Source: Defluviitaleaceae bacterium (GTDB lineage Bacteria; Bacillota; Clostridia; Lachnospirales; WQUN01). From it: DNA of 64,000 nt. Below the pieces are notes generated by a model, which saw only the letters and a program-made list of their open reading frames with translations, did not search any database and was not told the origin of the DNA. The stretch lies in assembly GCA_009779755.1 (NCBI GenBank), contig WRDO01000013.1, forward strand, positions 1 to 64,000, read 5' to 3'. Positions 28,131 through 57,933 of this stretch are shown piece by piece; within the stretch, counting starts at the first letter, position 1, and every line of letters starts with the position of its first letter. The translations under genes and the position numbers were made by a program.

Positions 28131-28140
28131 GTGAACGGTC

Positions 28141-39244: not shown

Positions 39245-42200
39245 TTATTTGCGGTATTTCTTCTTCATGAGTTTCATCGCGGTACCCAACAGCACCATGG
39301 ATAACCCCGCACCGAATAATATATGGTTTCCGGGGGTTTCACCGGTCGTCGGCATCGCGAGGTTGGGGATGGAAGCGGGTGGCTCCCATCCCCCCAGCGG
39401 TACATCCCAATCCTCGAAATACCATTCATCTTCGTCGTCCCAGCACCAATTTCCTAACGGGACACCCATATCGTCAAATTCCATAAAATAGATTTCGTCG
39501 CCGTCTGTCATGGGCACCAGAATATTGCCCGGCACCGTTGGGACGGGCGGGACATACGGATTTGAACCGCCGGGTGTATCCGGATCGGGTTGGGTCCCCG
39601 TAAAGTCAAAATGGGGGTAGCTCTCAGGTGTAAAGCCGTCCGGGAATATGATGATATAAGGCGGCGGCGTGGGGGTCGGCAGAGGCTCGGGTGAAGGTGA
39701 GGGCTCCGGCTCGGGTGAAGGCTCGGGTGAAGGCGGGTCTTCCGGTTCCGGCTCGGGCGTCGGGGTTGGTGATGGTTCCGGAGAGGGTGAAGGTGAAGGT
39801 GAAGGTGTCGGCGGGTCTTCGGGATCCGGAGTTGGTGACGGCTCGGGTGAAGGTGAAGGCGTCGGCGGGTCTTCGGGTTCCGGCGTCGGTGAGGGTTCCG
39901 GTGAAGGTTCCGGTGAAGGCTCCGGGTCTTCTTCGGTTATCGGTATTATGGGTATGGGGGTAGGTCTCGGCCTCGGCCTGGGCAAAGGTCTGGGGGTCGG
40001 TTGCGGTGTGGGGGTCGGCGCGGGGGGAGGATTATAACGGTTGGTGAATACGATCCCGTCATTCGGATGATGAATAAAAGCAGCCATCAATCTGCGGAAT
40101 GAAGGCATGAAGAAAAATCCGTCAAAATCGACCAGCGGAACCTCAACTTCATTAAAGATTTCAAAATCGCCGTTTTCATCATCGTCATCATCATTTTGGT
40201 TATCGATGTCATCTTCGTCGGTATCTTCGTCTTCATCATCTTCGGCGTCGGCATCGTTATCAGCACCGTCTTCATCACCTTCGGCGTTGACATCGTTATC
40301 GGCATCGTTGTCGGCATCTTCGTCTTCATTACCTACGGCGTCTTCGGCGTCTTCATCTTCGTCATCATCATCATCGGGGGTTGCCTGAGGAAGCACCGGA
40401 GGCATTATCGGGAAGTCGTCCTCTTCGATAAAGACATTGACGGACAATTCATATATGGTGCTGTCGTAGGTAATGTTCGCATCCCCCGTGGCTATTTCAA
40501 TGACCCGGTAGTTATGGGTGCCGACCCGGTCCTCGGAATAATAGAGGGTGAAGCTGAAGCTGCCGTTCGCGTCATTGGAGGTTGTTGCGAGCTGCCTGCC
40601 TTGGGCATCCAGCAAGTGGAAGAGGAATTCCCCTTCGCTTAAATCCCTGCCTTCAAGCACCTTGGTACCGTTGATAACGATGGACGTATCCTCCAGATCG
40701 CAGGGGGTATAGGTGTTGACAAACCTGATCCCGTCCGTGCCGTAATCGATTACGGTTAAAGGAGCCAGCACGTCGTCGGCCCTTGACAGTTCATCGATAC
40801 GGTACGTAAGGTTGCCGTTTTCTTCCGTTACTTCCACCGTTATGAAATACTTGACCGTATCGTAAATGAATTCGGGATGGTTGATCCGATTCTCTTCTAT
40901 CCTGAATCGGTATGTCCCGGGTTCGGTGAAGGTAATGGGGGCAAAGGTAAAGTCACCCGTACGGTTGGTTTGGCCGGCGGTCACGGGATTGGCTGTTTCC
41001 ATATCCGTGACGTTGAAGGTAAACATCGGGAGCGTTCCCGGGGCGTCAACCCCGTACTCGGCAGCGACGGTTTTGTTTGCGACCAGAATTAATTGGATGG
41101 GGTCAAAGACCGGCGGCGGCGGCGGGGTATATTGATTATTAAAAATCATGGGCCACTCGATGCCGTAGTCGCTGTCGTAGTTGGTGGAGGTCCGCTCCAG
41201 TGTGAGTACAAGCTCTCCGTTGATTTCTTTTTCCACTTCATCGATTTGAATGATGACCCATTTATCGTCTTCGTCATAGGTCATGCCTTCAATCCGTTGG
41301 TCCGCCGCCGGCGGCATTTCGCGGATGATGAAGTAATGAAGCCCCGCTTCGTTGATGAGGATGGGCCCGTCAAAGACGAGATTACCCGCCCCGTTGCTGT
41401 AACCCATGATTTCCGGTTCGGGGTGGAGCTCGTTGGTTTCTTCGTTTAAGCGGTATACGGCGAAGTCGAATACCCAGCTTGGGTCATAATCCGCAAGGCT
41501 GTTGGGGGCTACCCCGTTGACCTTCTTAAGCCCGGTCAGCTTAACCTCAATGCTGTCGTAGCTGCGGGGGGCCCTGTCGGAGGTATTAAAGAATTTCATC
41601 TTCGGGCCAATATCCAATTGAGCCGTTCCGTCTCTGCCGAAAACATAATCCGTTTCGTCCGTTCCGTCCGGCCCTTCCCCTGCATAGGTAGTGGAAACCC
41701 ATGACAGGGAGCCGTCCCCGTTGCGTTTGACTTCGATTTCGATGATATGGGTGATATTGTCAAATTCCACGGTGTAATGCGCGGGATAACGGCCGCCCGG
41801 GTTTTCCGTTACTGTAAATCGATGGGTTCCGGCGGCGGTTATTTCGATGGGGTCAAAGAAGATAACGCCCCATTGGTCATTGCTGCCGGTTGATACGATC
41901 CTTGAATCCTCGTCCCTGACGGTGAAGTCAAACACCCAGTACGGACCGGGAACTTCACCGTTCACCATTTTTATCCCGTAAATGGGTATAAAGAGGGGAT
42001 CGGGTATTTGGGTGAAGGTATTGGTTATGGTGATGCTGCCGTGCATGTTATCCGCGGCAATGATTTCCACGTCGGGGCTGTAGAAGGCAGTCCACCCTGC
42101 CGGCCCTTGCTCAATGACACTGTAGATATATCCGGGTTCCAAACCCGTAAACGTAACGTTCCCGTTATTAACAACGTCGATGAAGAGGAATTGCCCCGTC

Positions 42201-45200
42201 GCTTCCCAGTTATCCCAATAATCGTCGCGCGTCCGATCGGTAAGCGCAAGTTGATCGGGTCTGATACGGACCAAATCGACACGGATGTTCCCGCTTGCGG
42301 GTACGTCGGCGTCCACCCATTCCTTATACACGTCGATGCTGCCTAATGCGGTATAACGGTTGGTAATCGTAATAGCTCCGGTGATGGGCCCGTCGCCGGG
42401 AATTGCGGTCAACACATCGCCGTCCGTCGGCGTCCAATCCGTCAGATTCGTTTTTTCGATGACGGAGTAGGAACGTCCCGGTTCCAGGTCATTAAAGACA
42501 ACGCTCCAATCGTGGGGGCCCAGCACTTCGGTGATACCCGAGGGGATACCGTCGATAACCAGTTCCACCACGATCTGCTCATAAGGTGTCGGCGCGCCTT
42601 CCCATACCTTGGTGACTTCAATGGCATCCGGGGCATACGTGTTCAGGAATTTCAGCATTTCCGGGTTATATACCCCGTTTATCTCCGTGGTTGTCATCAC
42701 GCCGTTGACGGACCTGTATATATGGGTGATGACCGCGTGGGTCGTTGGCTCGTGGGTGACGCGTACCCTCAGCCATACCGGGTTTTGTTCAATCACCCAA
42801 GAAGCTCCGGGGTCGCGTTCCGTTATCCTGAAGAAGAAGTATTGGTCGTGTTCCTCCAAAAGCAGCCAGGTAATCGCTTCAAAGGCGAATACCTTACCGT
42901 CGGAAGTACCCGTGGTGGTCGCGGTCGAGGTAATTCCGTCCGCTACCGCGGTATCGTTAATCGTCCCGATCGTTTGCCCGCCGGGTATGCCGACCACTTC
43001 CACCAAATCAAAGGTGAAGGTGGTGCTGACGGGATTGCCGCGCAGGATTTCAAGCTCTTTTACCCCTTCGATAGCCAAGGAGGTCTTGCCTTTTTCGATA
43101 TTATCGAAGGCGTTTGAGAAGCGGCGGAATTCGGTATTCGCCGCCAAGGGAGCATCCGCTTCGGCTTTCCATTCGTCCCCGTCCCACCAGTATTGGCTGA
43201 ATTGCCCGGTTATCGGGTCGGACGTCAGCTTTACGAACAATACGGCGCGGTCGTGGGTCCAGCCGTTCCAATGGGGCCCGGAGGTTTCGTTGGGATTTTC
43301 CGTCAGACGGAAGTAATAGGTCCCCCGTTCCATGTTGGGCAGGTTGTAACTGACTTGGGACGTGGTGGCCGTACGTGCGTTTTGGATACGCGCTTCTCCT
43401 GCGACCAGCACCGAATTGTCCGCGGGCATGGCGCGCATGTAAATGGGATTATCGGTTAGGTCGCCCGTATCCGATACGGGGTTAAGTTCCCGCAGGGTAA
43501 AGGCAAAGCTCCTGCTCGGCGGGGGTTCGGACAGCCCTGTGGTCGGGGAAGTCAGCACCGGATAGAGCTTATAGAAGCTGATGGTCGCGGAGCCAAGGAA
43601 GTAGGTGTTGATAAAGGCACCGTCATCGGGGGTCATGGTAGTGGCATCCGCCAAGGGTTGGCCGTTACGGTAAACCTTGCTTAAGTCAACGGATTGCCAC
43701 TCGTGGGGAGCGATAACCAAGTTGTTATAACCGTGGGCCAGTTCGCCTCCCGTGGTTACGGTGATCTTTAATACCCGATAGGCATCGAGTATCCAACCGC
43801 CCGCCGTACTGCCCGCGGGCATCCTTTCTTCCAGCAGGAAGTAATATTCACCCGGTTCGGAGAAGGTAAGGGAGAAGTCGTGGCTCCCGTTGCGGCCCAT
43901 ATCCGTAATCTTGGTTTCCGTTCCGTTTACGGTAAAGGTATCGTCGTCGTTTTTGACGAGCGCGTGGCGGAAGAAAGCGAAGTTAATGGCGGGGGGAGCG
44001 CTCCCAACGACAGTTTTGGTGATGTTGACGGGGTCGGAGGTTTTCGGGAGGAAGATGTTAATGAAGTTATCCTCCGACGGAATGTCGGTGTACAGATCGG
44101 TCGTGGTGTTTAAGCCGATTCCGTTGATGAAGATATCCTCCAAGGCCGCCGAAATATACGATTGACTGATTTTGGTCAGCATACCGTTGGCGCCGTAGTC
44201 GATTTCCGCTTTCAGCAAGCGGTATCTGTCATACACCCAATCGTTGCCGACGGTGGTACTCGTTTCTTCTATTAAATAGTAGTAAGTCCCCGGGGCGGTG
44301 TAGGTGATATTAATATTGCCCGTAACGGGGTTGTTTCCGGCGGAAGCGGTAGGCTTTAAGGGGTTTGCCTGCGCCCAAGTACCGATGCCGTTATATTGTT
44401 CCGTAACTTCATTATATTCTAATTCGATGTATCTGAAGGTGTAGGTCGTTTCGAATTGGGCGGCGGTGAGGGTGCCTCTGCTCCGTACTTCCTTACCGTA
44501 GACAAGGTCAATGCCCGCGCCGTAGTACACATTAACGAAGGTAGCGTCACCTTCCACGGTTGGGGGCGTATCGGGGAAGAAGGCGCTGAGGTTGGCGGGC
44601 AACCATTCGACAACGGCGCGAAGTATATGGGTGGTTGGGTCGTTATTAATCGCTATCCGCAGCACCCGGTATCTGTCGTATCTCCAGCCCGCGGGTGGGG
44701 TACCCAATTCCTCGATTAAATAATAGTGGGTACCGACCCCTTGGAATTCCATAGCAAAGGAAGCGGAACCTTTGTCGGTAATCAGGTTAACCGCAAGGTC
44801 AATGGGTAGGATTGTGCCCGGCGTCGCGGCGGTGATTACGCCGTCCGTTCTGACGATGTGTGACAGTTCCCTTACCGCGAAGTTGTAGGTGCCGAAGCCG
44901 GACGCAATGCCCCGTACTTCCTTGCTTACGGGTACGGTTACGATAATGCGGCTGTAGCGGTTGATGAAGACGTTATTATCGGCGGAAAAAGAGGAAGGGC
45001 TGCCCGCCGCGTACCATGCATGGTATGCGGCAAAGTTCACCACCGTACCCCCGTGGTTGAGGGAGGGGATGGCGTACACGGGCGCGGAAGCGACTAAGCT
45101 GTCGGTAGTTTCATCGAAGGTTACTTCAACCTTGGCGATTCTGAAACGGTCATATTCCCAGCCCGGCGGGATGCCCGTGATCGGTACTTCCTCTTCGATT

Positions 45201-48200
45201 AAGAAATAATACGAGCCGGGTTGGTAGAAGGTGACGTTGAAGCTGTGGTTTTCCCTGCCGCTTTCCCCTACGGCGTTGGGGGACAGGGAGGCACTCGAAT
45301 TCAACACCGCCGTTGGGCTTACGGTAAAGGCACCCGGGTCACCGTCGATGGGAAACACGTTAAAGCGGTAGGAACGTACGGTATGGGATGCCGCTCCGGC
45401 CCCGGCGATTTCCTTATAATAAGTAAACGTGGCCGTAACGCTGTCAAAGCGGTTGACGAATACGTTGTTGTCGGGGGCAAAGACAAGGCCGTCGGCTGCG
45501 AATGTGATGCCGCTAAGGATAACATTCCCCGCCGCGTCCGCCTTCGGAGCCGCGTAGGCAACGGAGGCGTTTAATTCTTGAAGACCGTAGGAGTTGGAGG
45601 CGTTTTTGTTTTGGACGATTTCCCCGTCCTCGGTCACGGTGATTTTGGCAATCCTGAAGCGGTCATAAGTCCAACCGTCCGCCGGTGGTTCGGGCACGGT
45701 TTCTTCAATGAGGAAGAAGTGCTCGCCCGGCTCAAAGAAGGTGAAGTTGATTAACGCGCTCGGCGTCCGCTGACCCGCTATTTTTTGGATGATTTGGGTG
45801 GCGTTGGTGTTTTCGATGGGGGTACCTTGGCGGGTAAAGCTCCATACCCCGTTATCTTCCGTCGCGTCCAGGGCGTAGACGTTAAACGCGAAATTTCCGG
45901 AAAGATTGTTGTTGGGGGCGATTTCCTTAAAGAATTCGATTTGGGTGCTGACCCTGCGGTAGGCGTTTTCGTATTCGTTGCTTGCGGGGAGGTGCCCGCC
46001 GCGGAAGCGGTCGTAGTACGCGATGTCCGCGGGCAGCAACATGGAGCTGACATCGCTTATGGGGACGGATATCCATGAAACGGTTTGCGTCCCGCCGCTT
46101 ACGACGACCTGCATCACACGGAAGCGGTCATACGTCCAGCCGTTGGCTTCCTGTCCGGTTGCCGACAATTTTTCCTCCACCAGGAAATAATACGTGCCGT
46201 CCGCCGTCGGCACCCCGGAGAGGGGTACTCCGATCCAGCGCCTCGGCACCTCGTCGCTGGGCATCATGTTGCCGATGTCGCGGAGGGTGTCGGCTACGGG
46301 AGCAAAGGCCGCGCCCGGTTCGGGTCTGGCGATTTGCTGCATTTGGAAGTAATAACGGGTGCTGTAGTTGATTTCGTGGCTTTGGGTGCCGAACACATGC
46401 TTGTAAAGCACGGGGCCGTAGCCCGGGCCACCGACAAGGGAGCGGTTAACGAAGGTTCCCGTAGGCGGGGTCCATCCGGCGGGACGGGTCCCTTCGGCCC
46501 TGTAGAGTTCCAATATATTATCAAAAGGAGGGTCCAGCCCCCCCGGTGCTGCCGACAGCCCGCCGATCTCCGCCAGGTTAACGGATATAAAAGCAACGGG
46601 GTTGCCGGGCTGTTCCGGGTCGTCGGGGTCCGTCAGGGGATGGGTCATCAGTTTACCCACACCGTAAGGGAAGCCGCCGCCGTGCTGTATAACGTCGATA
46701 TGGAGCACACGGAAGCGGTCGTAATGCCATGGCTGGTCATCGGGCAGGGGGTTGGTTTCCCACAACAGGAAATAATAATCCCCGGGTTCGTAGAAGGTCA
46801 GCTCATGCCTTGCGTCAGGCACCGCGTGCATGACTTCGTCATCACCCCACGTATCGATGGAGGCAAGGTCAAACCACGCGCCCGCTCCGGTAAAGGTACC
46901 GTCTTCGTTTTTTAATAAACGGTGCCCCATGAAGTTCCACGTATGGGCCGCGGAGGAACCCAGTACCTGTTTGCTGTAATTCAAAACGACGGTGATGCTG
47001 TCGTAGAAGTTGACGAAGGTATCGTTATCCGGGGTTTTACCGTCGGGATACAGGTCATTAAACCTCGGGTCCTCCTGCGCCAAGGGAATGTCCGCCAAGT
47101 CAACGGATATCCATTCATGCTCGGCGGGTTCAACCCCGTCGGGGGTGGGGGTAATCATCAATACGCGGTAGCGGTCATAAGTCCAACCGCCGGGAGGTGT
47201 GCCTGCGGGCAGCCTTTCACGCACGAGGTAAAAATAAGGTTCATCGGATTGGGCGATGCCGAAACGCAGGGGGGTAAACCCGCTGAGGCTCCCGTCCCCG
47301 TTAACCTCCACGGTGATGGAAAAACTTTCGGTATGGATATCGCTCCATACGTCGTCCCCGCGGTATGCCGTCCATGAAGTGCCGTCTTGTCGGATACGGC
47401 GGAGGTCAAAGTCGAAGGTGCGCCCGACGGACGGTAAATCCGCAGGTTCCACCCCCAAAACGGTTTTGTTGACAATCACGGCGTAGGAAACGTTGTCGTT
47501 GGTGTTGACGAAGTTACCTGCCTTATCCGCTTCGGTTGAGACGGCGAAGCCATGGGCAACCAATCCGGTCGTTATGAGCGGCTGTAAGTCATAGTCAATC
47601 CATTCCGCCGTCGCTTTCAAGTAATCAATGATACCGCCGCTGTCGCTCAAATTCGGCGCGACGGTAACCCGCAGTACCCGATAACGGTCATAAACCCAAC
47701 CATCGGGGATGGGAGCGGGTACTAGTTCCTCCACCAAATAATAAAATACCCCGGCGGTTGTGCCGATCGGCAAGGAGAAGGACTGCTGACCGAAGATAGT
47801 CCCGTGTTCGGGGTCCGTAGCTACCGTAATGGGGTTAATGGGGACGATAGCGCCTATCTGTGCGCCGGTTTGGTGGTCGAATTGACGGTATTGGAATTCG
47901 AACGTGGCTCCCGGGGAGGCACCCTCACCGATTACTTTTTTGGTATATTCGACGTTGACGGAGGGGATGTTGATATAGGTGTTGGCAAAGGTGGAATTGC
48001 CGGGGATGATATTATCGGGATATAAACCGCCCAAATTTATTCCCGCGACAAGGTTGTTGCCGGTTAGGGTATGCGCGGTCCAGGTAATTTCGTATTTGAG
48101 CGCGTATTGCATAACCCCGGAGGCGTTGGCCGTGACGGGGCGGTTGGAATCTTCGCTGACGACGATTTCAAGTATTCTGTAACGGTCAAAGCTCCATCCG

Positions 48201-50347
48201 CGTCCGTTGGTGGCGGGGTTGTTAATGGCGGTGGGGATGTTTTCCTCCACGAGGTATCTGTGGGTCCCTATGCCGAGACCGGTAAGCGTAAAGCCGCCGT
48301 AATTGGCGGATTGCCCGGTTAGGGTATTAACGGTCGCGGGGGTTGCGGCGGTTACCCAGCTGACTGACATGGCGTTGGTGGTATTGTTCAGCTTCGCGTA
48401 CCGGAAGCTGAAGGACGCAACCGCCAGATTATGATCGGCGGGCCAAGTCCCTTGTACGACCTTGTTAAACGTAACGGGCACGCTGATGGTCAGGGGACGG
48501 TAACCGTTGGTTATCCGGCGGAAGCGGCTGTCCGCACCCGCGAATATCACGGCGTCATTGTTGTCGCTGTCAGTGTCGTCAATGTCGTTGTCATCATCTT
48601 CGTCTTCGTCATTGTCTTCATCGTTGTCTTCGTCGTTCTCTTCGTCATTCACCGGAGGCAGGAGAGGAATCCAATCGCCGGTAGTTATGCTGCCGTGCTT
48701 AAACCAAAATTCGGTCGGTGTATCGCCGTTAAACACTTCCACCCGCATAAAACGGGGAACGGTGTCCGTTATCCATCCGGCGTTCGGCACGGGAGAGGCG
48801 GGGATGGTTTCACGTATGCGGAAGTAATGCACCCCGGCCGGTAAATCCAGTTCGAAGGTTACCGCGTTGCTTAAGTAGGGGTTGGCGTTCGTTCCGTCTG
48901 CCCCGTCCGCCGTCCAGTTCATCGGGACATTGGCGGCAACGGTCCCCCCTACGGTACGGGTGGCGTTAAAATAGCCGGAGGAGCCCGTAAGGAATACGTT
49001 CCCGTTGACGTCCACTTTATCGATGTTAAACACGAAGGTTTGGTTCAACACGGTTCCGGTGGGCAGTTCGCCTACGACGGCTTTGTAGAATTCCGGCGTG
49101 GTAAGGACCTTACGCACGTTGGATTCCAGCGAAAAGCTCAGGAAGGGGGCGCCGAATTGGGCGTAACCGGTGATAATGGGTTGGAACTCCGTGGTTGAGG
49201 TGTTGTGGAGGTTCCTCAGCACATGGCCGCGAATGCTTCCGTTGGCCAAGGTCAGGTAATTGGCGGGTTCCTCGATCCTGACGCTGACCTCCCCCACCCC
49301 AAAGATATACAACTCGGCACCGGGAGCGAAGGAAACGCCGTTGGTAATGTTGTTGACCCTGTGGGCTGCCGAGGTACCGTTGATGTACACGGAAACATCG
49401 GTGCCTGCGGTTACGGTCAGCAGGAGGTTTTCGGTTCGGTTGTTTAAGTAACCCGTGCGGCTGACGGACAGGGCTTTGGTTTCCGGGTTATAAATGGCTT
49501 GCAAACCGGATATGCCCGACGGGGAAGCCGAGGTGTGTACGTATTCTTGGGTCATTTCCAAGAGCCTTTCGGCTACCTTGGTATAAAAATCAAGGGGTAA
49601 AGTACCGATATCGCCGCTCAGGTATGCGCCGTCCGGGTCACGGGGGTCTCCCAGCAAGCGGTCCTTGACAAACCCGATATTGCGGGGCTCCCACCTTTCG
49701 ATGTCGGTGACGAGATGCCATGTACTTCGGTTGGCGGGGTCAAATCGGACGGCCGCGGTATAGGTCGGGTCAAGGGCGAGCCGCATGGCGTCCTCGAAGG
49801 ACCATACAAACCCGGTCATAATGACCAGCCGCATTTCCTCCGTGACGTTGACACCGAACATGCGGTTAAATTCCGCAAGTTCAAGCATCGCCCCGTACCC
49901 GGAGCTGGCCAACGCGACAGCCAAGGAAGTGGCGTAATGGTTGGGGCCCCAAGGGAGGTCCGCGCGGTGGACGTGGTTGTCATGTGGGGGCAGCAGATTA
50001 TAATTCATACAAAAGGCGAGGAGCGGATGCCCTTGTATCTGCTGTCCCGGAAGGCCGGGCCTGATGACAAAACGGGCGTCCAGGAACGCGTAATTGTCAA
50101 AACGCGAGGAAACCGTATGGTCCCGATCCATACCCAACGCATCGTAGCTGTTAACGGGATCGTTGTTACGGTAGGCGAATTCCGATGTAAACAAGATGAG
50201 CTCCGGTTCGGTATACCCCGCGTCAATCACGTACCGCGTGGGTAGGAACCCCAAGGCAATTACGGTAAATAAGGCCGCAACCACCATAAACATGCCCGAC
50301 TTTCTGATGAAACCGTACCCTTTTTGGGTTTTAGAAGAATTAAACAC
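39245..50347 (-). CDS. Giant (3700 aa) wall-anchored surface protein with pilin-isopeptide-type repeats
   Basis: I start at the GTG (MFNSSKTQKGYGFIRKSG) behind GGAGG; longer readings lack a ribosome site. Order: signal segment; thioester-like domain (about 80-190; Cys113 in AFCMNY, but Thr178 where Gln is expected before Trp182); about 13 repeats of roughly 120-180 aa, each ending with a GWxYDRYRVLKITV-type strand after a YYFLIEE-type motif; two Cna-B-like domains (VTKVWEGAP, DVYKEWVDAD); four more canonical pilin-type domains; an Asp/Glu/Asn-rich linker; a (P-E-P-S/T) wall-spanning stretch; a VPLG-W module; MPTTG (3665-3669), a hydrophobic helix and KKKYRK. Probably covalently anchored by a sortase; Lys-Asn isopeptide bonds are inferred. 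Role likely adhesion. No sortase lies nearby. Confidence 0.9.
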   Translation of the reverse strand: MFNSSKTQKGYGFIRKSGMFMVVAALFTVIALGFLPTRYVIDAGYTEPELILFTSEFAYRNNDPVNSYDALGMDRDHTVSSRFDNYAFLDARFVIRPGLPGQQIQGHPLLAFCMNYNLLPPHDNHVHRADLPWGPNHYATSLAVALASSGYGAMLELAEFNRMFGVNVTEEMRLVIMTGFVWSFEDAMRLALDPTYTAAVRFDPANRSTWHLVTDIERWEPRNIGFVKDRLLGDPRDPDGAYLSGDIGTLPLDFYTKVAERLLEMTQEYVHTSASPSGISGLQAIYNPETKALSVSRTGYLNNRTENLLLTVTAGTDVSVYINGTSAAHRVNNITNGVSFAPGAELYIFGVGEVSVRIEEPANYLTLANGSIRGHVLRNLHNTSTTEFQPIITGYAQFGAPFLSFSLESNVRKVLTTPEFYKAVVGELPTGTVLNQTFVFNIDKVDVNGNVFLTGSSGYFNATRTVGGTVAANVPMNWTADGADGTNANPYLSNAVTFELDLPAGVHYFRIRETIPASPVPNAGWITDTVPRFMRVEVFNGDTPTEFWFKHGSITTGDWIPLLPPVNDEENDEDNDEDNDEDEDDDNDIDDTDSDNNDAVIFAGADSRFRRITNGYRPLTISVPVTFNKVVQGTWPADHNLAVASFSFRYAKLNNTTNAMSVSWVTAATPATVNTLTGQSANYGGFTLTGLGIGTHRYLVEENIPTAINNPATNGRGWSFDRYRILEIVVSEDSNRPVTANASGVMQYALKYEITWTAHTLTGNNLVAGINLGGLYPDNIIPGNSTFANTYINIPSVNVEYTKKVIGEGASPGATFEFQYRQFDHQTGAQIGAIVPINPITVATDPEHGTIFGQQSFSLPIGTTAGVFYYLVEELVPAPIPDGWVYDRYRVLRVTVAPNLSDSGGIIDYLKATAEWIDYDLQPLITTGLVAHGFAVSTEADKAGNFVNTNDNVSYAVIVNKTVLGVEPADLPSVGRTFDFDLRRIRQDGTSWTAYRGDDVWSDIHTESFSITVEVNGDGSLSGFTPLRFGIAQSDEPYFYLVRERLPAGTPPGGWTYDRYRVLMITPTPDGVEPAEHEWISVDLADIPLAQEDPRFNDLYPDGKTPDNDTFVNFYDSITVVLNYSKQVLGSSAAHTWNFMGHRLLKNEDGTFTGAGAWFDLASIDTWGDDEVMHAVPDARHELTFYEPGDYYFLLWETNPLPDDQPWHYDRFRVLHIDVIQHGGGFPYGVGKLMTHPLTDPDDPEQPGNPVAFISVNLAEIGGLSAAPGGLDPPFDNILELYRAEGTRPAGWTPPTGTFVNRSLVGGPGYGPVLYKHVFGTQSHEINYSTRYYFQMQQIARPEPGAAFAPVADTLRDIGNMMPSDEVPRRWIGVPLSGVPTADGTYYFLVEEKLSATGQEANGWTYDRFRVMQVVVSGGTQTVSWISVPISDVSSMLLPADIAYYDRFRGGHLPASNEYENAYRRVSTQIEFFKEIAPNNNLSGNFAFNVYALDATEDNGVWSFTRQGTPIENTNATQIIQKIAGQRTPSALINFTFFEPGEHFFLIEETVPEPPADGWTYDRFRIAKITVTEDGEIVQNKNASNSYGLQELNASVAYAAPKADAAGNVILSGITFAADGLVFAPDNNVFVNRFDSVTATFTYYKEIAGAGAASHTVRSYRFNVFPIDGDPGAFTVSPTAVLNSSASLSPNAVGESGRENHSFNVTFYQPGSYYFLIEEEVPITGIPPGWEYDRFRIAKVEVTFDETTDSLVASAPVYAIPSLNHGGTVVNFAAYHAWYAAGSPSSFSADNNVFINRYSRIIVTVPVSKEVRGIASGFGTYNFAVRELSHIVRTDGVITAATPGTILPIDLAVNLITDKGSASFAMEFQGVGTHYYLIEELGTPPAGWRYDRYRVLRIAINNDPTTHILRAVVEWLPANLSAFFPDTPPTVEGDATFVNVYYGAGIDLVYGKEVRSRGTLTAAQFETTYTFRYIELEYNEVTEQYNGIGTWAQANPLKPTASAGNNPVTGNINITYTAPGTYYYLIEETSTTVGNDWVYDRYRLLKAEIDYGANGMLTKISQSYISAALEDIFINGIGLNTTTDLYTDIPSEDNFINIFLPKTSDPVNITKTVVGSAPPAINFAFFRHALVKNDDDTFTVNGTETKITDMGRNGSHDFSLTFSEPGEYYFLLEERMPAGSTAGGWILDAYRVLKITVTTGGELAHGYNNLVIAPHEWQSVDLSKVYRNGQPLADATTMTPDDGAFINTYFLGSATISFYKLYPVLTSPTTGLSEPPPSRSFAFTLRELNPVSDTGDLTDNPIYMRAMPADNSVLVAGEARIQNARTATTSQVSYNLPNMERGTYYFRLTENPNETSGPHWNGWTHDRAVLFVKLTSDPITGQFSQYWWDGDEWKAEADAPLAANTEFRRFSNAFDNIEKGKTSLAIEGVKELEILRGNPVSTTFTFDLVEVVGIPGGQTIGTINDTAVADGITSTATTTGTSDGKVFAFEAITWLLLEEHDQYFFFRITERDPGASWVIEQNPVWLRVRVTHEPTTHAVITHIYRSVNGVMTTTEINGVYNPEMLKFLNTYAPDAIEVTKVWEGAPTPYEQIVVELVIDGIPSGITEVLGPHDWSVVFNDLEPGRSYSVIEKTNLTDWTPTDGDVLTAIPGDGPITGAITITNRYTALGSIDVYKEWVDADVPASGNIRVDLVRIRPDQLALTDRTRDDYWDNWEATGQFLFIDVVNNGNVTFTGLEPGYIYSVIEQGPAGWTAFYSPDVEIIAADNMHGSITITNTFTQIPDPLFIPIYGIKMVNGEVPGPYWVFDFTVRDEDSRIVSTGSNDQWGVIFFDPIEITAAGTHRFTVTENPGGRYPAHYTVEFDNITHIIEIEVKRNGDGSLSWVSTTYAGEGPDGTDETDYVFGRDGTAQLDIGPKMKFFNTSDRAPRSYDSIEVKLTGLKKVNGVAPNSLADYDPSWVFDFAVYRLNEETNELHPEPEIMGYSNGAGNLVFDGPILINEAGLHYFIIREMPPAADQRIEGMTYDEDDKWVIIQIDEVEKEINGELVLTLERTSTNYDSDYGIEWPMIFNNQYTPPPPPVFDPIQLILVANKTVAAEYGVDAPGTLPMFTFNVTDMETANPVTAGQTNRTGDFTFAPITFTEPGTYRFRIEENRINHPEFIYDTVKYFITVEVTEENGNLTYRIDELSRADDVLAPLTVIDYGTDGIRFVNTYTPCDLEDTSIVINGTKVLEGRDLSEGEFLFHLLDAQGRQLATTSNDANGSFSFTLYYSEDRVGTHNYRVIEIATGDANITYDSTIYELSVNVFIEEDDFPIMPPVLPQATPDDDDDEDEDAEDAVGNEDEDADNDADNDVNAEGDEDGADNDADAEDDEDEDTDEDDIDNQNDDDDDENGDFEIFNEVEVPLVDFDGFFFMPSFRRLMAAFIHHPNDGIVFTNRYNPPPAPTPTPQPTPRPLPRPRPRPTPIPIIPITEEDPEPSPEPSPEPSPTPEPEDPPTPSPSPEPSPTPDPEDPPTPSPSPSPSPEPSPTPTPEPEPEDPPSPEPSPEPEPSPSPEPLPTPTPPPYIIIFPDGFTPESYPHFDFTGTQPDPDTPGGSNPYVPPVPTVPGNILVPMTDGDEIYFMEFDDMGVPLGNWCWDDEDEWYFEDWDVPLGGWEPPASIPNLAMPTTGETPGNHILFGAGLSMVLLGTAMKLMKKKYRK

Positions 50348-50534
50348 AAAAAACACCTCCGTTACCTTAACGATTGACATCATGTCTACGGTTATATAGA
50401 AAATAAACAAAAATATCGCTGGTTTTAAACGGATCGGTTATGAGGGGGGTACCACGCCCCTTTTTGTTGAATTTGCCTCTTTTTTAGGTATTTATGTACT
50501 GTACACAAGGCATAAAAAACACCTTCTCACCAAT

Positions 50535-50564
50535 ATAATACAGTGGTTTTTTATGGAAAGTCAA
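50535..50564 (-). promoter_or_regulatory. Promoter for the giant adhesin
   Basis: On the minus strand TTGACT (50559-50564), an 18-nt spacer and TATTAT (50535-50540) form a near-consensus promoter, giving a leader of about 180 nt before the GTG. The leader includes the small palindrome TGTACTGTACA (50495-50505) and a G-run/C-run hairpin near 50440-50465; I could not match it to a known riboswitch. Confidence 0.6.
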
Positions 50565-50590
50565 TATACCGCGAAAATACGTAATACACA

Positions 50591-50606
50591 CAAAAGTATA
50601 CTTTTG
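50591..50606. promoter_or_regulatory. 16-bp perfect palindrome CAAAAGTATACTTTTG between the divergent adhesin genes
   Basis: It lies in the 389-bp divergent gap, next to a candidate rightward promoter (TTGCGC 50604-50609, 18 nt, TATATT 50628-50633) and 27 bases upstream of the leftward -35. The position suits a shared operator for both surface-protein genes; this is inference. Confidence 0.4.
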
Positions 50607-50736
50607 CGCACATAAATTCCGTAAAAATATATTTTATTTTCGTATGATACGCGCTGAGTTGTTGTGCTATAAATGTTTCATGGGTTATTTGCAGGGTTTT
50701 TTAAAAGGTTTCATGGTCAAGCAAGGGGGTTATATT

Positions 50737-53700
50737 GTGAAAACAAAAAATCAAAGTCGGAACAGCCTGCCGAAGCGGGCTTTAAGCGTACTGCTTTCGC
50801 TGCTGTTGGTATTCGGGGGAACGGTTACATATAACGAAATTGTAGCGGCTGACCTTCCGCCGGAGTATTCGCTTTATGTTGTTGACACTTACGGCAGTTT
50901 TATCGGGGACGCGGTTCAATCCGGCGTTTTGCCTGACGCGAGCGGCGAGATTGTGTTCTACATCCCCGACAACCCCGGCTGGCACGCGGTGGTTGAATCG
51001 GGCGGCGGTATCGAACCCTTGTATGTCTATGTTGACGGGAGCGGTACGGTCATTAACACAATGAGGCAATCCCACTTCGTCAACCCTGCGGCAGCGGCAC
51101 AAAACAACCAAAGCAACCAAAACAGCCATGACTACACGGTGCAATGGGTCGGCGGCGGTCAGTCGGCATATGTTGCTTTAATTGCTTACGATGAAAGCAG
51201 CCTTGAAGCATGTAAGATATATTGCGGCTTTTGTGATTGGGATCCGGATTGTGAGGATTGTAAATATTGCGAAAATCCGGCGGAATGTTATCACTGTTTG
51301 GTACACATCAGCTACGCCGGGTCCGATGGCATGACATTGGCTACCCAAAGGTTTATGACAAAAATGCCGGAAGGGGATATGCTCTCATTTTGCGCGGACT
51401 TGGGTGCGCTTTCCACAAGCGGTATTTATGAAATTGACTTTACCAACCACGGCTTCGATTCTTATCAAGTGACTTATATCATAGCGGTGTTTGATTTTTT
51501 ACACGAACGGTACGGCGGGTTTTTCGGCGAACACGGCAAAGCGATTGCCCAAGTCGTTTTGTGGAATTTGTTGATTGAAGCAGACGATGCTCCTTATATC
51601 AGGGACTTTTTTGCGGGTAAAAACACCGTGCGGGTGGAAGGACACAGCAGTTGGTGGACCAAAGAATACAATAATCTTCTAAACCACCTGCTCGCTAATC
51701 GTGACTATTATATCAACAGGTATAACGCGAAAAAGCAGAACGGGCTTGGCCCCTATGATGTTGCCGGCATTGTTTTTATCAAGGGCACCGGTTACAGCGA
51801 TGCCGAAAGAACCGAGGAAATTACCGACTCCAAAATGCAGCAGCGTCAAATGGTCGTGCTGTACGGTAGGGATATGAAGGTTGTCGCCGGCAGCAATGAC
51901 CTTCTTGACGTTCGTTTTATACCGCGTCCGTTTGATGTCGCTACCGGTTCTGTCGAAGTGCTGAAGAGGGAATTTTGCGCGGACGGTCAACAACTGATAA
52001 ACGAAAGAACGGAACAAATCATCACCAGAGCCGACTCCGTGACGATGGGGTTAACGCCGACAGGCGGGAACAACGATTTTAATTACGCGCAGGTTTATGT
52101 GGAGGAAGTTAAGGCGATGCCCGACGGTATTGACTTTGATATAATCCACGGAAACGGGAAGAAAAAAGTCGGAACGGCAAATATACAGATAATAGAGGAA
52201 GACGGCAGGGACAGGATAAAGTTTACGATACTTAACTGGTCAGCAAACGCCAAGAAGTGGGATGTTTTGGCATGGACCAGGATTCCGCAAACTAATCTGA
52301 ACCCGCTGACGTCGCACCCGTATACGGGCTCTACCGTGACTATCGACTGCCCCGTACCGAGGGATGGATGGGTCGCCGTTTATTTCCACGGGCAGGGTCT
52401 TGAAACCGTGGAGTACGTTGAGTTTGCGGTGGACTTTGAGTTCCAAATACTGAGTATGCCTTTAATGATTCCCGTGCCCATTGACGAAAACAACATAACG
52501 TTCAGAAGCGAGGACGGAAAAATAATATCGAACGGCGGCTCGATCCTTAACGGTTCCCAAGGCACGTTTACGCTAAAAAACGGCATTGCCGCGACCATCA
52601 GCGGTCTCAAGCCCGGTCAATACCAAATAATTGAAAAAGTAAACGACGCTTATATAACCACAATCAACGGCTCCGATAACCCGAGCAATTCAACGACCAT
52701 TTCGGTAAACGCGGACGGGATTGCGGAAGTGGTTTTCGAAAACAAATGGCGCACAACCAACGACGGGCAGATTAAGGTTATGAAAGGGCTGACGGGATAC
52801 CCCGAAGATTGGGATATAGACGATAATTCGGTGTTTTATATAAAAGCGTGGGATATCAGTAATAATAGATATCTTTCGTTCAGCTCAGTGCCCGAACCGA
52901 ACGGCGCGTATAAGTTTGTTGACGGCGATTACGGCGGCACAGCCATAACCGAAATTCCCTTAAGCGTCAACGACCCCGCGGTATTAACGAATCTGCCGGA
53001 GGGTTTCGGATACAGGATAGAAGAAGTCAGGGCGGAGGTACCTGTCGATTCTAATTATTGGATGGTGTCTTATTCCGCTACCAACGCGGAAATACTGACA
53101 AAAAATGAACAGCTGATTGTGACCGTAACCAACGATTATAAGCACAGCGTCGGAAATATAGAAATCCGCAAAGAGCTTGACGGCGATTGGGGTTCATGGA
53201 AAGTAGACGAAGATTACGAATTCATAGCGAGGGTTTGGGACTCAACGGACGGGAACTACCTGATATTCAAAGCGGACGAAGACGGAAATGCCATTCCCGA
53301 AGCGGACGGAACTTATAAAAATATCGGGCATCTCAGGTGTGAACACACCACTTGCCCGACAAGGGTTTGTGAAGGGGAAAACAACGCTGTCCATTATACC
53401 GTAACAGAGGCTGTCGGCAGCCTTTATACAACCAACATCCCTTTCAGCGCAAATAATCCGGCCGTATTAACCAACCTGTTCGCGGCGGGGCATTATTATC
53501 GCGTTGAAGAGGTTACGGACGGAAAAGTATATAAGGATTTTGTGGACGTGTCGTACTCCATCCAAAATGTGGTGGAAATCGACAGGATGAACACATTCGT
53601 CGTGACGGTAACCAACACATTCGATAAACAAATATTGAAACCCGGCTTCGCGTCGGTCAGCATTGAGGGTAACAAGATTATCGAAGGAATATACACAGGT

Positions 53701-56700
53701 CCCGCGGTGCCGTTCCACTTCTACGCGGAACAAGTGGACGGAATGGGCAGCGAAAATCGTGTTTCCCCCGGTTTAAGCGCTAACGATACCGTTTACGGAG
53801 AAGGCAGATACGCTATTAATATTGACAATTTAAGCGTCGAAAACAGTCCGTATTATTTTCTTATAAGGGAAGCGGACCAAAGCGGGCTTGGATGGTTATA
53901 TGACAACCACAGATACTGGGTGCAGATCGATGTTACGGACAACGGCGACGGAACCGCTTCCGCAAATATCACGGGGGAAAGCGGAAGCCCCGACTTTACG
54001 AATTATTATGAATATGTTCCGGGTGTGACATCGGTCGCGATACAAGGTACAAAATTTATTGAAGGTACGTATTTGGGTCCACGGATAACCTTTACGTTCA
54101 CAGCGGAGCAAGTAGAAGGAATGGGCAGCGATGATTTGGTTCACGAAGGCATAATCGAAACGGGAACCGTTTCGGTTACGCGTGAAAACTCGGAGGATTT
54201 CGCGATAACCATTAACGATCTGACCGAGGGTACGTATTATTTCAAAGTAACGGAAAATAACGGAAGCGGTGACGGATGGATTTCCGATAAAAACGCTTAC
54301 TGGGTAGAAATTACCGTTACGGACAACGGTGACAGCACCGCTGCGGCGGAAGTTAAAGGCAACGGCATTTACTTTACGAATATCTACGAACCGAGCAGCA
54401 CTTTCATTGTTATTTCGGGTGAAAAATTCATCGAGGGCGGTTATACGGGCCCCGATATACCGTTTATCTTTAACGCGGTCCAAGTGGACGATATGGGCAG
54501 CGAAACGGAAATTCCCTTCGGTTTGAGCGGTACGGACACCGTGTACGGCGAAGGTCGCTACAGCATTGTAATAAACAATCTGACCGCGGCGGAAAGTCCG
54601 TATTATTTCATGGTAACGGAGCGGGACCAAAGCGAGTCCGGATGGACATACGACAACCACAAATATTGGGTACAGGTTAATGTAACGGATAACGGGAACG
54701 GTACCGCCGCGGCAGCGATAGCAGGTGAAAGCGGAAGCCCCGATTTCAATAATTATTACAGATACGATGAAGGAATCACGACGGCCGTTATAATGGGTAA
54801 TAAAATTATCACCGGTTCATATTCCGGTATGCCGAGAACGTTTAAGTTTAACGCGGTGCAGGTAACCGCGATGAACAGCCATGAATTGATTCCGGACGGA
54901 AAAAGCGGCACGGGTACCGTATCGGCGGCGTTCGGCAACGCAAACGCATTCGCCGTAAACATCGCGGGTTTGACCGCGGGTATGTATTATTTCAGGGTTA
55001 CCGAGGAAAGCCCCGAAAACGGCGGCGGATGGACGTATGACAGAAACGCGTATTGGGTGCAGATTGCCGTTACGGACAACGGGAACAGCACGGCGACGGC
55101 GGTTATAACAGGAAACCATTTAACCTTTTCAAATAACTATACGGTAAGCAACGCGTCAATTACACTTACGGGCAACAAAACCGTCAACGGCTTGTATACA
55201 GGCCCTCCGATACCGTTTGAATTTAACGCGGTTCAAGTGGTTTCGATGGGCAGCACAAGTGAAGTCGCTTCCGGTTTGAGGGGTTCGGACACCGTAAACG
55301 GCGCGGGTATGTATGCGATTGAGTTTGATAATCTGACCGTAGGCACATACTTCTTTATGATAACGGAGGTTGACAAAAGCGGATACGGCTGGATATACGA
55401 TGACCATAAATATTGGGTACAAGTCACCGTTACCGACAACAACAACGGTACTTCCTCGGCGACTATTACCGGGGTGAGCGGAAGCCCTGACTTTATCAAT
55501 TATTATGAACGTGTACCGGAGGTAACGACGGCAATAATCACGGGTAATAAAATTATTAACGGTACGTATTCGGGCGCCCCGAGGACCTTCACGTTCAGGG
55601 CTGACGAAGTTGACGGAATGTACAGCGATAACGTAATCAGCGGTAGAAGCGGTACAGGCACCATTACGGTGTCAAAAGAGACTTCGAAACCGTATGCCAT
55701 CAGCATTAACGGGCTGACGAGCGGCACATACTATTTCAGGATAACGGAAGTCAACAACAGCGGAAACGGATGGATATATGACACGAATGTTCACTGGGTG
55801 GAAGTCATAGTAACGGAAAACGGCTACGGCATTAACGGCGGCGTTGCATTCAGCGGCGATGAACTGTCAAATGGCGAGGACGAAGACGAACCGTCAGATA
55901 TTGAGGACGAAGACGAACCGTCAGATAACGAAGACGAGGACGAACCGTCCGATAACGGGGACGAAAATGATGAACCCGAACCGGATGATGAAAACGGTGA
56001 TTATTTAACATACGATATAAACAACAACGGGGATGACATTGAAATCACGGACGATGAAGTGCCTTTGTCCGGTTGGGACGGCGCGGCACCTAACGGAGGA
56101 AACGGTGCTAAAGCGGTTATCCTCGGTAACGGTGTTGATTTTACGAACACATACGCGGTTTATGACAACGCGTCGGTTGTCATTTCGGGCAGAAAGATTA
56201 TTGAAGGCCCGTACAGCGGTCCCGACTTACCGTTTACATTCAATGCGGTTCAAGTAGGCGCGATGGGCAGCGAAGCCGCCGTTTCGGGACTTGGCGGAAC
56301 GGATACTGTATACGGCGAAGGGCAATATTCAATCACTGTATCTAATCTGTCCATGGTAAACAGCCCGTACTTCTTTATGGTAACCGAGGTTAATCAAGAT
56401 GATGCAAACTGGACGTGTGACGGTCATAAATATTGGGTGCAAGTTACGGTAACCGATAACGGCGACGGTACGACAAGCGCCGACATCACGGGAGCTAGCG
56501 GCAGTCCCGACTTTACGAATTTCTACCGTATGGATGAAGCGGTTACATCAGCCAACATCACGGGCACAAAGAACATTACGGGTATATATTCCGGTGCCGC
56601 GGTAACCTTTACGTTTAACGCCGTTCAAGTGGAATCCATGAACAGCCGTGTTGAAGTTGCGGACGGTAAGAGAGGCACGGGAACAGTTAAAGTAACGAAT

Positions 56701-57933
56701 GAGCAAACGAAACCCTTTGCCATCGGCATCGGCGGATTGACTGAGGGTATATATTACTTCATGGTTACGGAAGATGAAGACAGTTTAACCGGATGGAAGC
56801 ATGACAGCGGTGCTTATTGGGTACAGATTAATGTTACGGATTTGGGAGACGGGACGGCTGAAACGGAAATCATCGGCAGCCCGGTCTTTGAAAATCGGTA
56901 TGCCCCCGAACCGGGCCTCGCGTCCGTAAGTATACCGTTGGAAAAACGTATAACCGGCGACACGCCTCCCGCCTTCCCGCCGTTTACGTTTAACGCAGTC
57001 CAAACGACGTCAATGGGTACGAATAATACCGTATCCGACGGGTTGACCGGCTCCGCGGTTATGACAGACTCCGGTACATTTGCGATTAATATAAATAATT
57101 TGGCCGTGTCGAACAGACCGTATTATTTTATGATTACGGAAGAAGACCAAAGCGACGGCAACTGGACATATGATTCAAGCATATACTGGATTCAAGTTTC
57201 CGTAACGGATAACGGCAACGGTATTGCAACCGCGGTTATTGTCGGTGAAATGGGAAGCAGAATTTTCACAAACCAATATAACGAACCGATTATACCGACG
57301 CCGATACCGGCTGCCGAAGTAACGCCGACACCGACACCGGACCCCGAAGTAACACCGGATCCCGAGGAAACACCTGATCCCGAAGAAACAACCGATCCCG
57401 AGGAAACGCCTGATCCCGAGGTAACACCCGACCCCGAAGAAACGCCGACGCCGACACCGGAGCCTTTGGTGGAGCTTGAAGATCCGGATGTACCTACCGC
57501 CAATATATATTTTCCGGAAGGTTTAACACCGGAAGATTTTCCGGGTATGAATTTCGAGGGATTACAGCCTGACCCGTATACTCCGGGCGGCACTGACCCC
57601 GGTGTTCCGCCGGTGCCGAATTATTCGGGAAGTCAGCTGATGCCTATGATGGATGACGACGGGTTTATATATTTCATCGAATTTGATGATATAGACGTTC
57701 CGTTAGGTGAATGGTACTGGGATGATGACGATTTTTGGTTCTTTGATGATTGGGATGTTCCTTTGGGAGCATGGGATTCGTCGGAGGAAGAAGATTCCGA
57801 AATGCCTGAAATGCCTATGCCGAAAACCGGTCAAGTCACCGTAACGCACATTATGTTCAACACGGGACTGTACATGATATTGGCAGGTGTTTTATTAAAA
57901 ATAATCGGCAAGAGAAAGATAAGAAGGATTTAA
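50737..57933 (+). CDS. Large (2398 aa) wall-anchored surface protein with thioester domain and nine alternating repeats
   Basis: Start GTG (MKTKNQSRNSLPKRALSV) with AAGGGGG; a reading from 50644 has no ribosome site. Order: signal peptide to about residue 37; an eight-cysteine cluster (159-187); a thioester domain with Cys219 (LSFCADLG) and Gln272 (AIAQVVLW), able to form a covalent bond to host amines; three Cna-B/prealbumin-like domains; nine repeats of about 120 aa alternating between two subtypes (YGEGRYSI...YYFMVTE...YDNHKYWVQV and GTGTV...GTYYFRVTE); a (P-D-P-E-E-T) linker; the VPLG-W module; MPKTG (2361-2365), helix, KRKIRR. Repeat six contains an acidic insert with four EDEDEPSDN-like units. 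Likely adhesin; divergent from the 3700-aa protein. Confidence 0.92.
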   Translation: MKTKNQSRNSLPKRALSVLLSLLLVFGGTVTYNEIVAADLPPEYSLYVVDTYGSFIGDAVQSGVLPDASGEIVFYIPDNPGWHAVVESGGGIEPLYVYVDGSGTVINTMRQSHFVNPAAAAQNNQSNQNSHDYTVQWVGGGQSAYVALIAYDESSLEACKIYCGFCDWDPDCEDCKYCENPAECYHCLVHISYAGSDGMTLATQRFMTKMPEGDMLSFCADLGALSTSGIYEIDFTNHGFDSYQVTYIIAVFDFLHERYGGFFGEHGKAIAQVVLWNLLIEADDAPYIRDFFAGKNTVRVEGHSSWWTKEYNNLLNHLLANRDYYINRYNAKKQNGLGPYDVAGIVFIKGTGYSDAERTEEITDSKMQQRQMVVLYGRDMKVVAGSNDLLDVRFIPRPFDVATGSVEVLKREFCADGQQLINERTEQIITRADSVTMGLTPTGGNNDFNYAQVYVEEVKAMPDGIDFDIIHGNGKKKVGTANIQIIEEDGRDRIKFTILNWSANAKKWDVLAWTRIPQTNLNPLTSHPYTGSTVTIDCPVPRDGWVAVYFHGQGLETVEYVEFAVDFEFQILSMPLMIPVPIDENNITFRSEDGKIISNGGSILNGSQGTFTLKNGIAATISGLKPGQYQIIEKVNDAYITTINGSDNPSNSTTISVNADGIAEVVFENKWRTTNDGQIKVMKGLTGYPEDWDIDDNSVFYIKAWDISNNRYLSFSSVPEPNGAYKFVDGDYGGTAITEIPLSVNDPAVLTNLPEGFGYRIEEVRAEVPVDSNYWMVSYSATNAEILTKNEQLIVTVTNDYKHSVGNIEIRKELDGDWGSWKVDEDYEFIARVWDSTDGNYLIFKADEDGNAIPEADGTYKNIGHLRCEHTTCPTRVCEGENNAVHYTVTEAVGSLYTTNIPFSANNPAVLTNLFAAGHYYRVEEVTDGKVYKDFVDVSYSIQNVVEIDRMNTFVVTVTNTFDKQILKPGFASVSIEGNKIIEGIYTGPAVPFHFYAEQVDGMGSENRVSPGLSANDTVYGEGRYAINIDNLSVENSPYYFLIREADQSGLGWLYDNHRYWVQIDVTDNGDGTASANITGESGSPDFTNYYEYVPGVTSVAIQGTKFIEGTYLGPRITFTFTAEQVEGMGSDDLVHEGIIETGTVSVTRENSEDFAITINDLTEGTYYFKVTENNGSGDGWISDKNAYWVEITVTDNGDSTAAAEVKGNGIYFTNIYEPSSTFIVISGEKFIEGGYTGPDIPFIFNAVQVDDMGSETEIPFGLSGTDTVYGEGRYSIVINNLTAAESPYYFMVTERDQSESGWTYDNHKYWVQVNVTDNGNGTAAAAIAGESGSPDFNNYYRYDEGITTAVIMGNKIITGSYSGMPRTFKFNAVQVTAMNSHELIPDGKSGTGTVSAAFGNANAFAVNIAGLTAGMYYFRVTEESPENGGGWTYDRNAYWVQIAVTDNGNSTATAVITGNHLTFSNNYTVSNASITLTGNKTVNGLYTGPPIPFEFNAVQVVSMGSTSEVASGLRGSDTVNGAGMYAIEFDNLTVGTYFFMITEVDKSGYGWIYDDHKYWVQVTVTDNNNGTSSATITGVSGSPDFINYYERVPEVTTAIITGNKIINGTYSGAPRTFTFRADEVDGMYSDNVISGRSGTGTITVSKETSKPYAISINGLTSGTYYFRITEVNNSGNGWIYDTNVHWVEVIVTENGYGINGGVAFSGDELSNGEDEDEPSDIEDEDEPSDNEDEDEPSDNGDENDEPEPDDENGDYLTYDINNNGDDIEITDDEVPLSGWDGAAPNGGNGAKAVILGNGVDFTNTYAVYDNASVVISGRKIIEGPYSGPDLPFTFNAVQVGAMGSEAAVSGLGGTDTVYGEGQYSITVSNLSMVNSPYFFMVTEVNQDDANWTCDGHKYWVQVTVTDNGDGTTSADITGASGSPDFTNFYRMDEAVTSANITGTKNITGIYSGAAVTFTFNAVQVESMNSRVEVADGKRGTGTVKVTNEQTKPFAIGIGGLTEGIYYFMVTEDEDSLTGWKHDSGAYWVQINVTDLGDGTAETEIIGSPVFENRYAPEPGLASVSIPLEKRITGDTPPAFPPFTFNAVQTTSMGTNNTVSDGLTGSAVMTDSGTFAININNLAVSNRPYYFMITEEDQSDGNWTYDSSIYWIQVSVTDNGNGIATAVIVGEMGSRIFTNQYNEPIIPTPIPAAEVTPTPTPDPEVTPDPEETPDPEETTDPEETPDPEVTPDPEETPTPTPEPLVELEDPDVPTANIYFPEGLTPEDFPGMNFEGLQPDPYTPGGTDPGVPPVPNYSGSQLMPMMDDDGFIYFIEFDDIDVPLGEWYWDDDDFWFFDDWDVPLGAWDSSEEEDSEMPEMPMPKTGQVTVTHIMFNTGLYMILAGVLLKIIGKRKIRRI

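Follow-up and report, generated by a model that had tools for sequence, protein, structure and literature searches.

Divergent genes for two giant, probably wall-anchored proteins with isopeptide-type stalks in a Defluviitaleaceae bacterium

The closest described systems are the TIE proteins (thioester, isopeptide, ester; PMC4450167, PMC6194298). P1 and P2, the products of two giant genes in the 64,000-nt stretch of DNA analysed here (the window), resemble them in having an export signal, a head with candidate Cys and Gln residues, a stalk of tandem intramolecular isopeptide domains and a C-terminal sorting signal. They differ in that the head is not detected by Pfam as a thioester domain (TED), the ester-domain motif HxDxxDxxQ is absent, and the sorting signal is MPxTG, in a 137-aa tail with VPLGxW repeats. 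The giant adhesin of Mobiluncus mulieris, with 7651 aa and 51 Ig-like domains, is similar to P1 and P2 in that a single gene encodes a giant stalk, cross-linked within the molecule, and a putative TED towards the N-terminus, but it combines ester with isopeptide domains and has twice the length, whereas P1 and P2 have only isopeptide (FctA/CnaB) types (PMC10619420). The fold and the Lys/Glu/Asn triad of the pilins Spy0128, FctA, FctB and PitB (PDB 3b2m, 5ttd, 7w7i) recur in each stalk unit of P1 and P2. Those pilins are, however, short pilus subunits, whereas a single chain here has as many as 19 units, and the sortase examined does not score as class C. Fibrillar adhesins with CnaB-like stalks have been surveyed (PMC12617251), and share with P1 and P2 the Pfam stalk families (FctA, DUF7601) and the predicted bond residues; that survey used AFDB, which stops at 1280 aa, and proteins as long as P1 and P2 fall outside it.

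P1 and P2 are a further example of this known kind of adhesin. We consider it likely that both are single-chain, giant, TIE-like fibrillar adhesins, anchored to the wall, with isopeptide stalks and with heads at the tip. The first-pass annotation had also described wall-anchored isopeptide adhesins, a reading well supported by the FctA matches, the triads, the model of P1 unit 8 and the MPxTG tails. P1 and P2 extend giant cross-linked adhesins to a lineage of which the nearest named genome was obtained from a soil-feeding termite's gut.

Gene structure and stalk domains

The two divergent genes, 11.1 and 7.2 kb long as first annotated, span exactly 39245-57933 in the ORF list and its translations. 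Their main features outside the heads and tails are as follows.

39245..50347, minus strand: P1 gene, 3700 aa from GTG 50347 (the ORF list begins at TTG 50410)
50737..57933, plus strand: P2 gene, 2398 aa from GTG 50737 (the ORF list begins at ATG 50644)
50532..50564, minus strand: P1 promoter-like site, TTGACT-18-TATTAT, conserved in the relative G004
50221..50347, minus strand: P1 N-terminal hydrophobic export signal region, judged by eye from the sequence, boundary approximate
40028..49099, minus strand: P1 stalk, 19 isopeptide-type domains (13 long FctA-like, 2 CnaB/DUF7601-like, 4 FctA-like)
51931..57285, plus strand: P2 stalk, about 12 isopeptide-type domains (1 DUF7601-like, 2 CnaB-like, 9 FctA)
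48536..48685, minus strand: acidic (D/E-rich) insert inside P1 stalk unit 1 (sequence)
40151..40390, minus strand: acidic (D/E-rich) insert inside P1 stalk unit 19 (sequence)
55849..56043, plus strand: acidic insert inside P2 FctA unit 8 (sequence)

G004 is Defluviitaleaceae bacterium Lab288P1bin109 (WQZS01000004.1), a termite-gut MAG of the same genus and the nearest genome with a P1. The P1 start at GTG 50347 lies directly 3' of the ribosome-binding site GGAGGTG and matches the ATG start of the G004 orthologue; GTG 50737 of P2 is preceded by AAGGGGG and followed by a typical basic-hydrophobic export signal. The GTG starts were preferred because of these ribosome-binding sites and, for P1, the ATG of the orthologue, and the starts in the ORF list are probably too far upstream. 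No riboswitch or other RNA family reached threshold upstream of P1. N-terminal hydrophobic signals, judged by eye, are present in both proteins, which would be exported by this route.

Pfam FctA (PF12892) matched P1 at 5e-73 (243.9 bits, eight stretches) and P2 at 2.4e-86 (286.9 bits, nine stretches), against a cut-off of 22.1; the NCBIfam model strep_pil_rpt agrees. P1 was divided into 19 units, of which two short ones are CnaB/DUF7601-like, and P2 into 11 FctA/CnaB-like units plus one DUF7601-like domain. The positions of the triad are a Lys in strand 1, a Glu in YYFxxxE and an Asn in the last strand. All three residues were found in 12/12 long units of P1 and in 19/19 units of P2 and P3, a third protein that is described below. 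When the 12 P1-type units of P1 were aligned with 12 from its G004 orthologue, only five columns were invariant (K9, F26, E83, W94 and N160), three of which are the triad. Because the units were cut by eye, close to the Lys and Asn residues, this alignment of the triad is partly built in. A Lys falls in the first strand of 19/19 P1 units, although Lys makes up only 1.9% of P1; by a simple estimate that leaves the freedom in choosing unit boundaries out of account, the probability of this by chance is about 1e-13. An independent check is that a profile of the P1-type units alone found Spy0128 (3B2M; E=2.6e-4) with Lys and Glu in register.

An AlphaFold (AF2) model of P1 unit 8 (pLDDT 70.8, pTM 0.73) was compared with known structures. 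The top Foldseek matches were all Spy0128, FctB and PitB pilins (3b2m, E 2.2e-6), and VIA gave a Z of 10.7 against FctB 5ttd, with an rmsd of 3.0 over 113 residues. As modelled, P1 unit 8 matches a CnaB-like fold. The assignment of the stalk units of P1 and P2 to CnaB-like pilin isopeptide domains of the FctA/Spy0128 type is well supported. In each stalk domain, an isopeptide bond between Lys and Asn would be expected to form autocatalytically, with the Glu as catalyst.

The FctA hits, the triads and the fold of unit 8 agree with the pilin-isopeptide-type and Cna-B-type domains first proposed for both proteins. That proposal had been made to depend on Lys/Asn/Glu triads and on export, and the triads and N-terminal signals are both present. 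The size of the domains was underestimated at about 120 aa: the units of P1 average about 155 aa, which gives 19 stalk domains and not the 30 or so that the smaller figure implies. The Spy0128 domain is 4.5-5 nm long. At that length per domain the stalk of P1 would reach about 85-95 nm, near but below the 100 nm that it had been thought to exceed. The arm would be stiff and protease-resistant, of this length in P1 and of about 55-60 nm in P2, and would present the N-terminal head at its tip.

P1, P2 and P3 are all very acidic (pI 4.1-4.4). This acidity, together with the D/E-rich inserts, could fit an alkaline gut; acidic wall proteins are common, and for that reason no claim of adaptation is made.

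N-terminal heads

The features of the heads are given below.

49100..50220, minus strand: P1 N-terminal head, candidate class II-like thioester domain (motif only)
51325..51882, plus strand: P2 head core, candidate class I-like thioester domain, shared with P3
51211..51297, plus strand: insert with eight Cys in the head of P2 (CKIYCGFCDWDPDCEDCKYCENPAECYHC), not present in P3

The TED motif [YFL]C-hydrophobic-polar, which holds the bond-forming Cys, has been described, as has a TQxx-hydrophobic-W helix motif which is not essential (PMC4450167). The first is present as FCMN in P1 and as FCAD in P2 and P3, and is a short motif that is weak alone. The second appears with one change in P2 and P3 (AQVVLW) and with two in P1 (MTGFVW). 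P1 has only three Cys in 3700 aa, and it is C113 of the head (50009-50011) that sits in the [YFL]C motif. Two candidate Gln residues follow it, at 170 aa in GLQAIY and at 276 aa in TEFQPIITG; the latter, Q389 (49181-49183), is kept in the G004 orthologue, as is C113. In P2 the candidate Cys is C219 (51391-51393), and the candidate Gln lies in QQRQMVVL near 51847-51849. The heads of P2 and P3 resemble each other (37-41%), and both have the motif QQRQ(M/L)(V/L)V 152-156 aa after the Cys. The eight Cys of the P2 insert lie in a run of 29 aa that shortly precedes the candidate Cys of the thioester. The Gln of TQxxPhiW was also considered as the thioester Gln and was rejected, since published TEDs put the bond-forming Gln in a later strand.

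Searches with profiles gave little. Neither head matched the Pfam TED family at E<=10, and the TED profiles had no match in the genome to which the window belongs. Against PDB sequences the P1 head profile had no match and the P2/P3 head profile had only unrelated chance matches. When the heads were aligned by hhalign with TEDs of relatives, FC and AQVVLW of P2 and P3 fell in register and the P1 head aligned elsewhere, in neither case significantly. Thus none of Pfam, PDB sequences and hhalign links the heads significantly to an adhesion or thioester domain already known. Among 392 genomes of the order, the weak matches of the P2/P3 head profile that were inspected are a LacI-type regulator and an unrelated large protein, and viral contigs held no relative of either head. 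A single-sequence AF2 model of the P2 head (pLDDT 38) was of no use.

It is plausible from the motifs that the heads are thioester domains, and the chance of a thioester in at least one of them is about evenly balanced. The competing explanation is that P1 and P2 are stalked adhesins whose heads bind non-covalently and have no thioester, the head Cys being structural or, in P2, part of a loop stabilised by metal or disulfides. The lack of any TED profile match is as expected of such heads, and in P1 so are the MT in place of TQ in the helix motif and a candidate Gln which, at 276 aa from the Cys, is further away than in the solved TEDs described. P2 and P3 argue against it, since the combination of FCAD, AQVVLW and a Gln 152-156 aa downstream is close to the class I spacing of SfbI (Cys109-Gln261; PMC4450167). 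We put non-covalent heads at a little short of an even chance. In the TIE-like reading that we prefer, the probable target of the heads would be a surface or a polymer of the gut, and a Cys-Gln thioester may make the attachment covalent. Should the heads prove to be thioester domains, bacteria that attach covalently would also be known among the symbionts of insect guts.

The shared tail, a third protein and a linked sortase

The C-terminal regions of P1 and P2, and a third protein encoded on a contig other than that of the window, have these features.

39656..40027, minus strand: P1 Pro-rich wall-spanning linker (sequence)
39248..39655, minus strand: conserved C-terminal tail of P1, with VPLGxW repeats; its sorting signal, MPTTG, is at 39341-39355 (comparison)
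57502..57930, plus strand: P2 conserved C-terminal tail with sorting signal MPKTG at 57817-57831 (comparison)
L028:7573-12381, other contig: P3, third tail-bearing paralogue, 1602 aa

The last 137 or so aa of P1, P2 and P3 are 53-54% identical to one another and end in MPTTG, MPKTG and MPSTG, respectively, followed by a hydrophobic stretch and a basic end. P1 and P2 have the export signal, LPxTG-like motif, hydrophobic stretch and basic end of a sortase-anchored wall protein. MPxTG is not the canonical LPxTG, and variants of the first residue are frequent in related tails. In the whole genome the tail is found on exactly these three proteins. The C-termini that P1 and P2 had been noted to share thus mark a set of proteins and not a pair, as P3 carries the same tail. 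Elsewhere in the family and order, genomes have weaker versions, most of which end in MPQTG. Remote VPLGxW/MPxTG tails were found on 17 large proteins in G002, of the same genus, and on six in G011, of the same family, which suggests expansions of wall proteins with one common address tail.

As annotated at first, no sortase or pilin polymerase lies beside P1 and P2: the window has no sortase, and the four of the genome are all on other contigs. A candidate for the sortase which that annotation proposed to locate was found in a gene that overlaps that of P3, and is conserved in G004. Among five genomes of the same genus, two have both a close tail and this sortase, two have neither, and G002 has the remote tails and no orthologue of the sortase. 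From the gene overlap and these five genomes, it seems probable that the P3-linked sortase joins P1 and P2 to the wall by their MPxTG signals. Two of the other three sortases are class D/E-like and could be the anchoring enzymes instead. The result is a concrete tail-sortase pair for testing, with three surface proteins on two contigs, one address tail and a sortase gene that overlaps P3.

Pilin-type domains and a sortase gene overlapping that of P3 would also be in keeping with P1 and P2 as pilin subunits that a class C sortase polymerises into pili. We regard this as very improbable. Neither protein has a YPKN-like pilin motif, P3 having only a loose match, IYPD, and single chains of 1600-3700 aa are long enough to span tens of nm by themselves. 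The P3-linked sortase, the one examined in this respect, matches the general sortase family and reaches no class cut-off; it scored 82.5 against the class C profile, far below the cut-off of 160. It has one N-terminal hydrophobic segment and none at the C-terminus, and since it is without a C-terminal membrane segment it does not look like a pilus polymerase.

Comparison with a termite-gut relative

Lab288, in the name of G004, denotes Labiotermes labralis, a soil feeder (PMC7024585), and the MAG is from a sample of the gut compartment P1 (not to be confused with protein P1). The same paper reports that this compartment yielded 79% of Defluviitaleaceae MAGs, and calls it highly alkaline. We infer that the organism of the window also lives in a termite gut.

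G004 is the only other genome of the genus with a P1. This orthologue is 82% identical and colinear, and the flagellar genes and two hybrid histidine kinases keep the same order at the locus. At the nucleotide level the two genomes are homologous across P1 and its promoter as far as about position 50570 of the window; the homology ends before P2. The P3-linked sortase is kept in G004 (70% identical) between the same neighbours, without P3. No P2 head was found there, and only one tail-bearing protein. P2 was found in the genome of the window only. The best reading of this pattern is that P1 and the sortase form an older or shared core, because both are kept in G004 where P2 and P3 are absent, and that P2 and P3 are accessory, being either gains of the window's lineage or losses in that of G004. 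As such, P2 and P3 would use the same route of anchoring, with heads that differ.

As originally suggested from their C-termini and a shared promoter region, P1 and P2 would make up a two-component adhesion system; such a dedicated pair would be co-regulated from a promoter region that acts in both directions. They are indeed neighbours that diverge from start codons 389 bp apart, and their tails are closely similar. The comparison with G004 does not support this, since P1 and its promoter are retained there without P2; the homology ends just beyond the promoter, which therefore predates the junction with P2. P3, whose gene is elsewhere in the genome, moreover has the same tail and a P2-like head. 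A dedicated pair is quite doubtful on this evidence. A further proposal is a lineage-specific kit for covalent adhesion in the termite hindgut. It would comprise three giant fibres with different heads and one unlinked sortase that reads the 137-aa VPLGxW/MPxTG tail as an address label, with class I-like thioesters in P2 and P3, a class II-like one in P1, and the eight-Cys loop of P2 just before the reactive Cys. Taken as a whole this is unlikely, if less so than the dedicated pair.

Other features were seen near the locus and elsewhere in the genome. Between flagellin and the hybrid histidine kinases, the window has genes for a HindIII-type restriction endonuclease and an N6/N4 methylase (30810-32631), which by comparison with G004 are a clean insertion of some 2 kb. 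Two flagellin-like genes are adjacent at 26655-30060, and blastn suggests that a colinear counterpart of the one at 26655-28130 is missing from G004. The hybrid histidine kinase at 35035-39081 is beside P1 in both genomes. Its 600 or so N-terminal residues have no Pfam match and resemble an extracytoplasmic sensor of the binding-protein type, and it could sense a ligand related to the role of P1. On contig C10 of the same genome as the window, a separate FctA-repeat gene (L029:7625-10366) is broken just after a GAAACG microsatellite (9839-9904), and FctA sequence resumes in a second ORF; this may be a phase-variable gene, a pseudogene or an assembly error.
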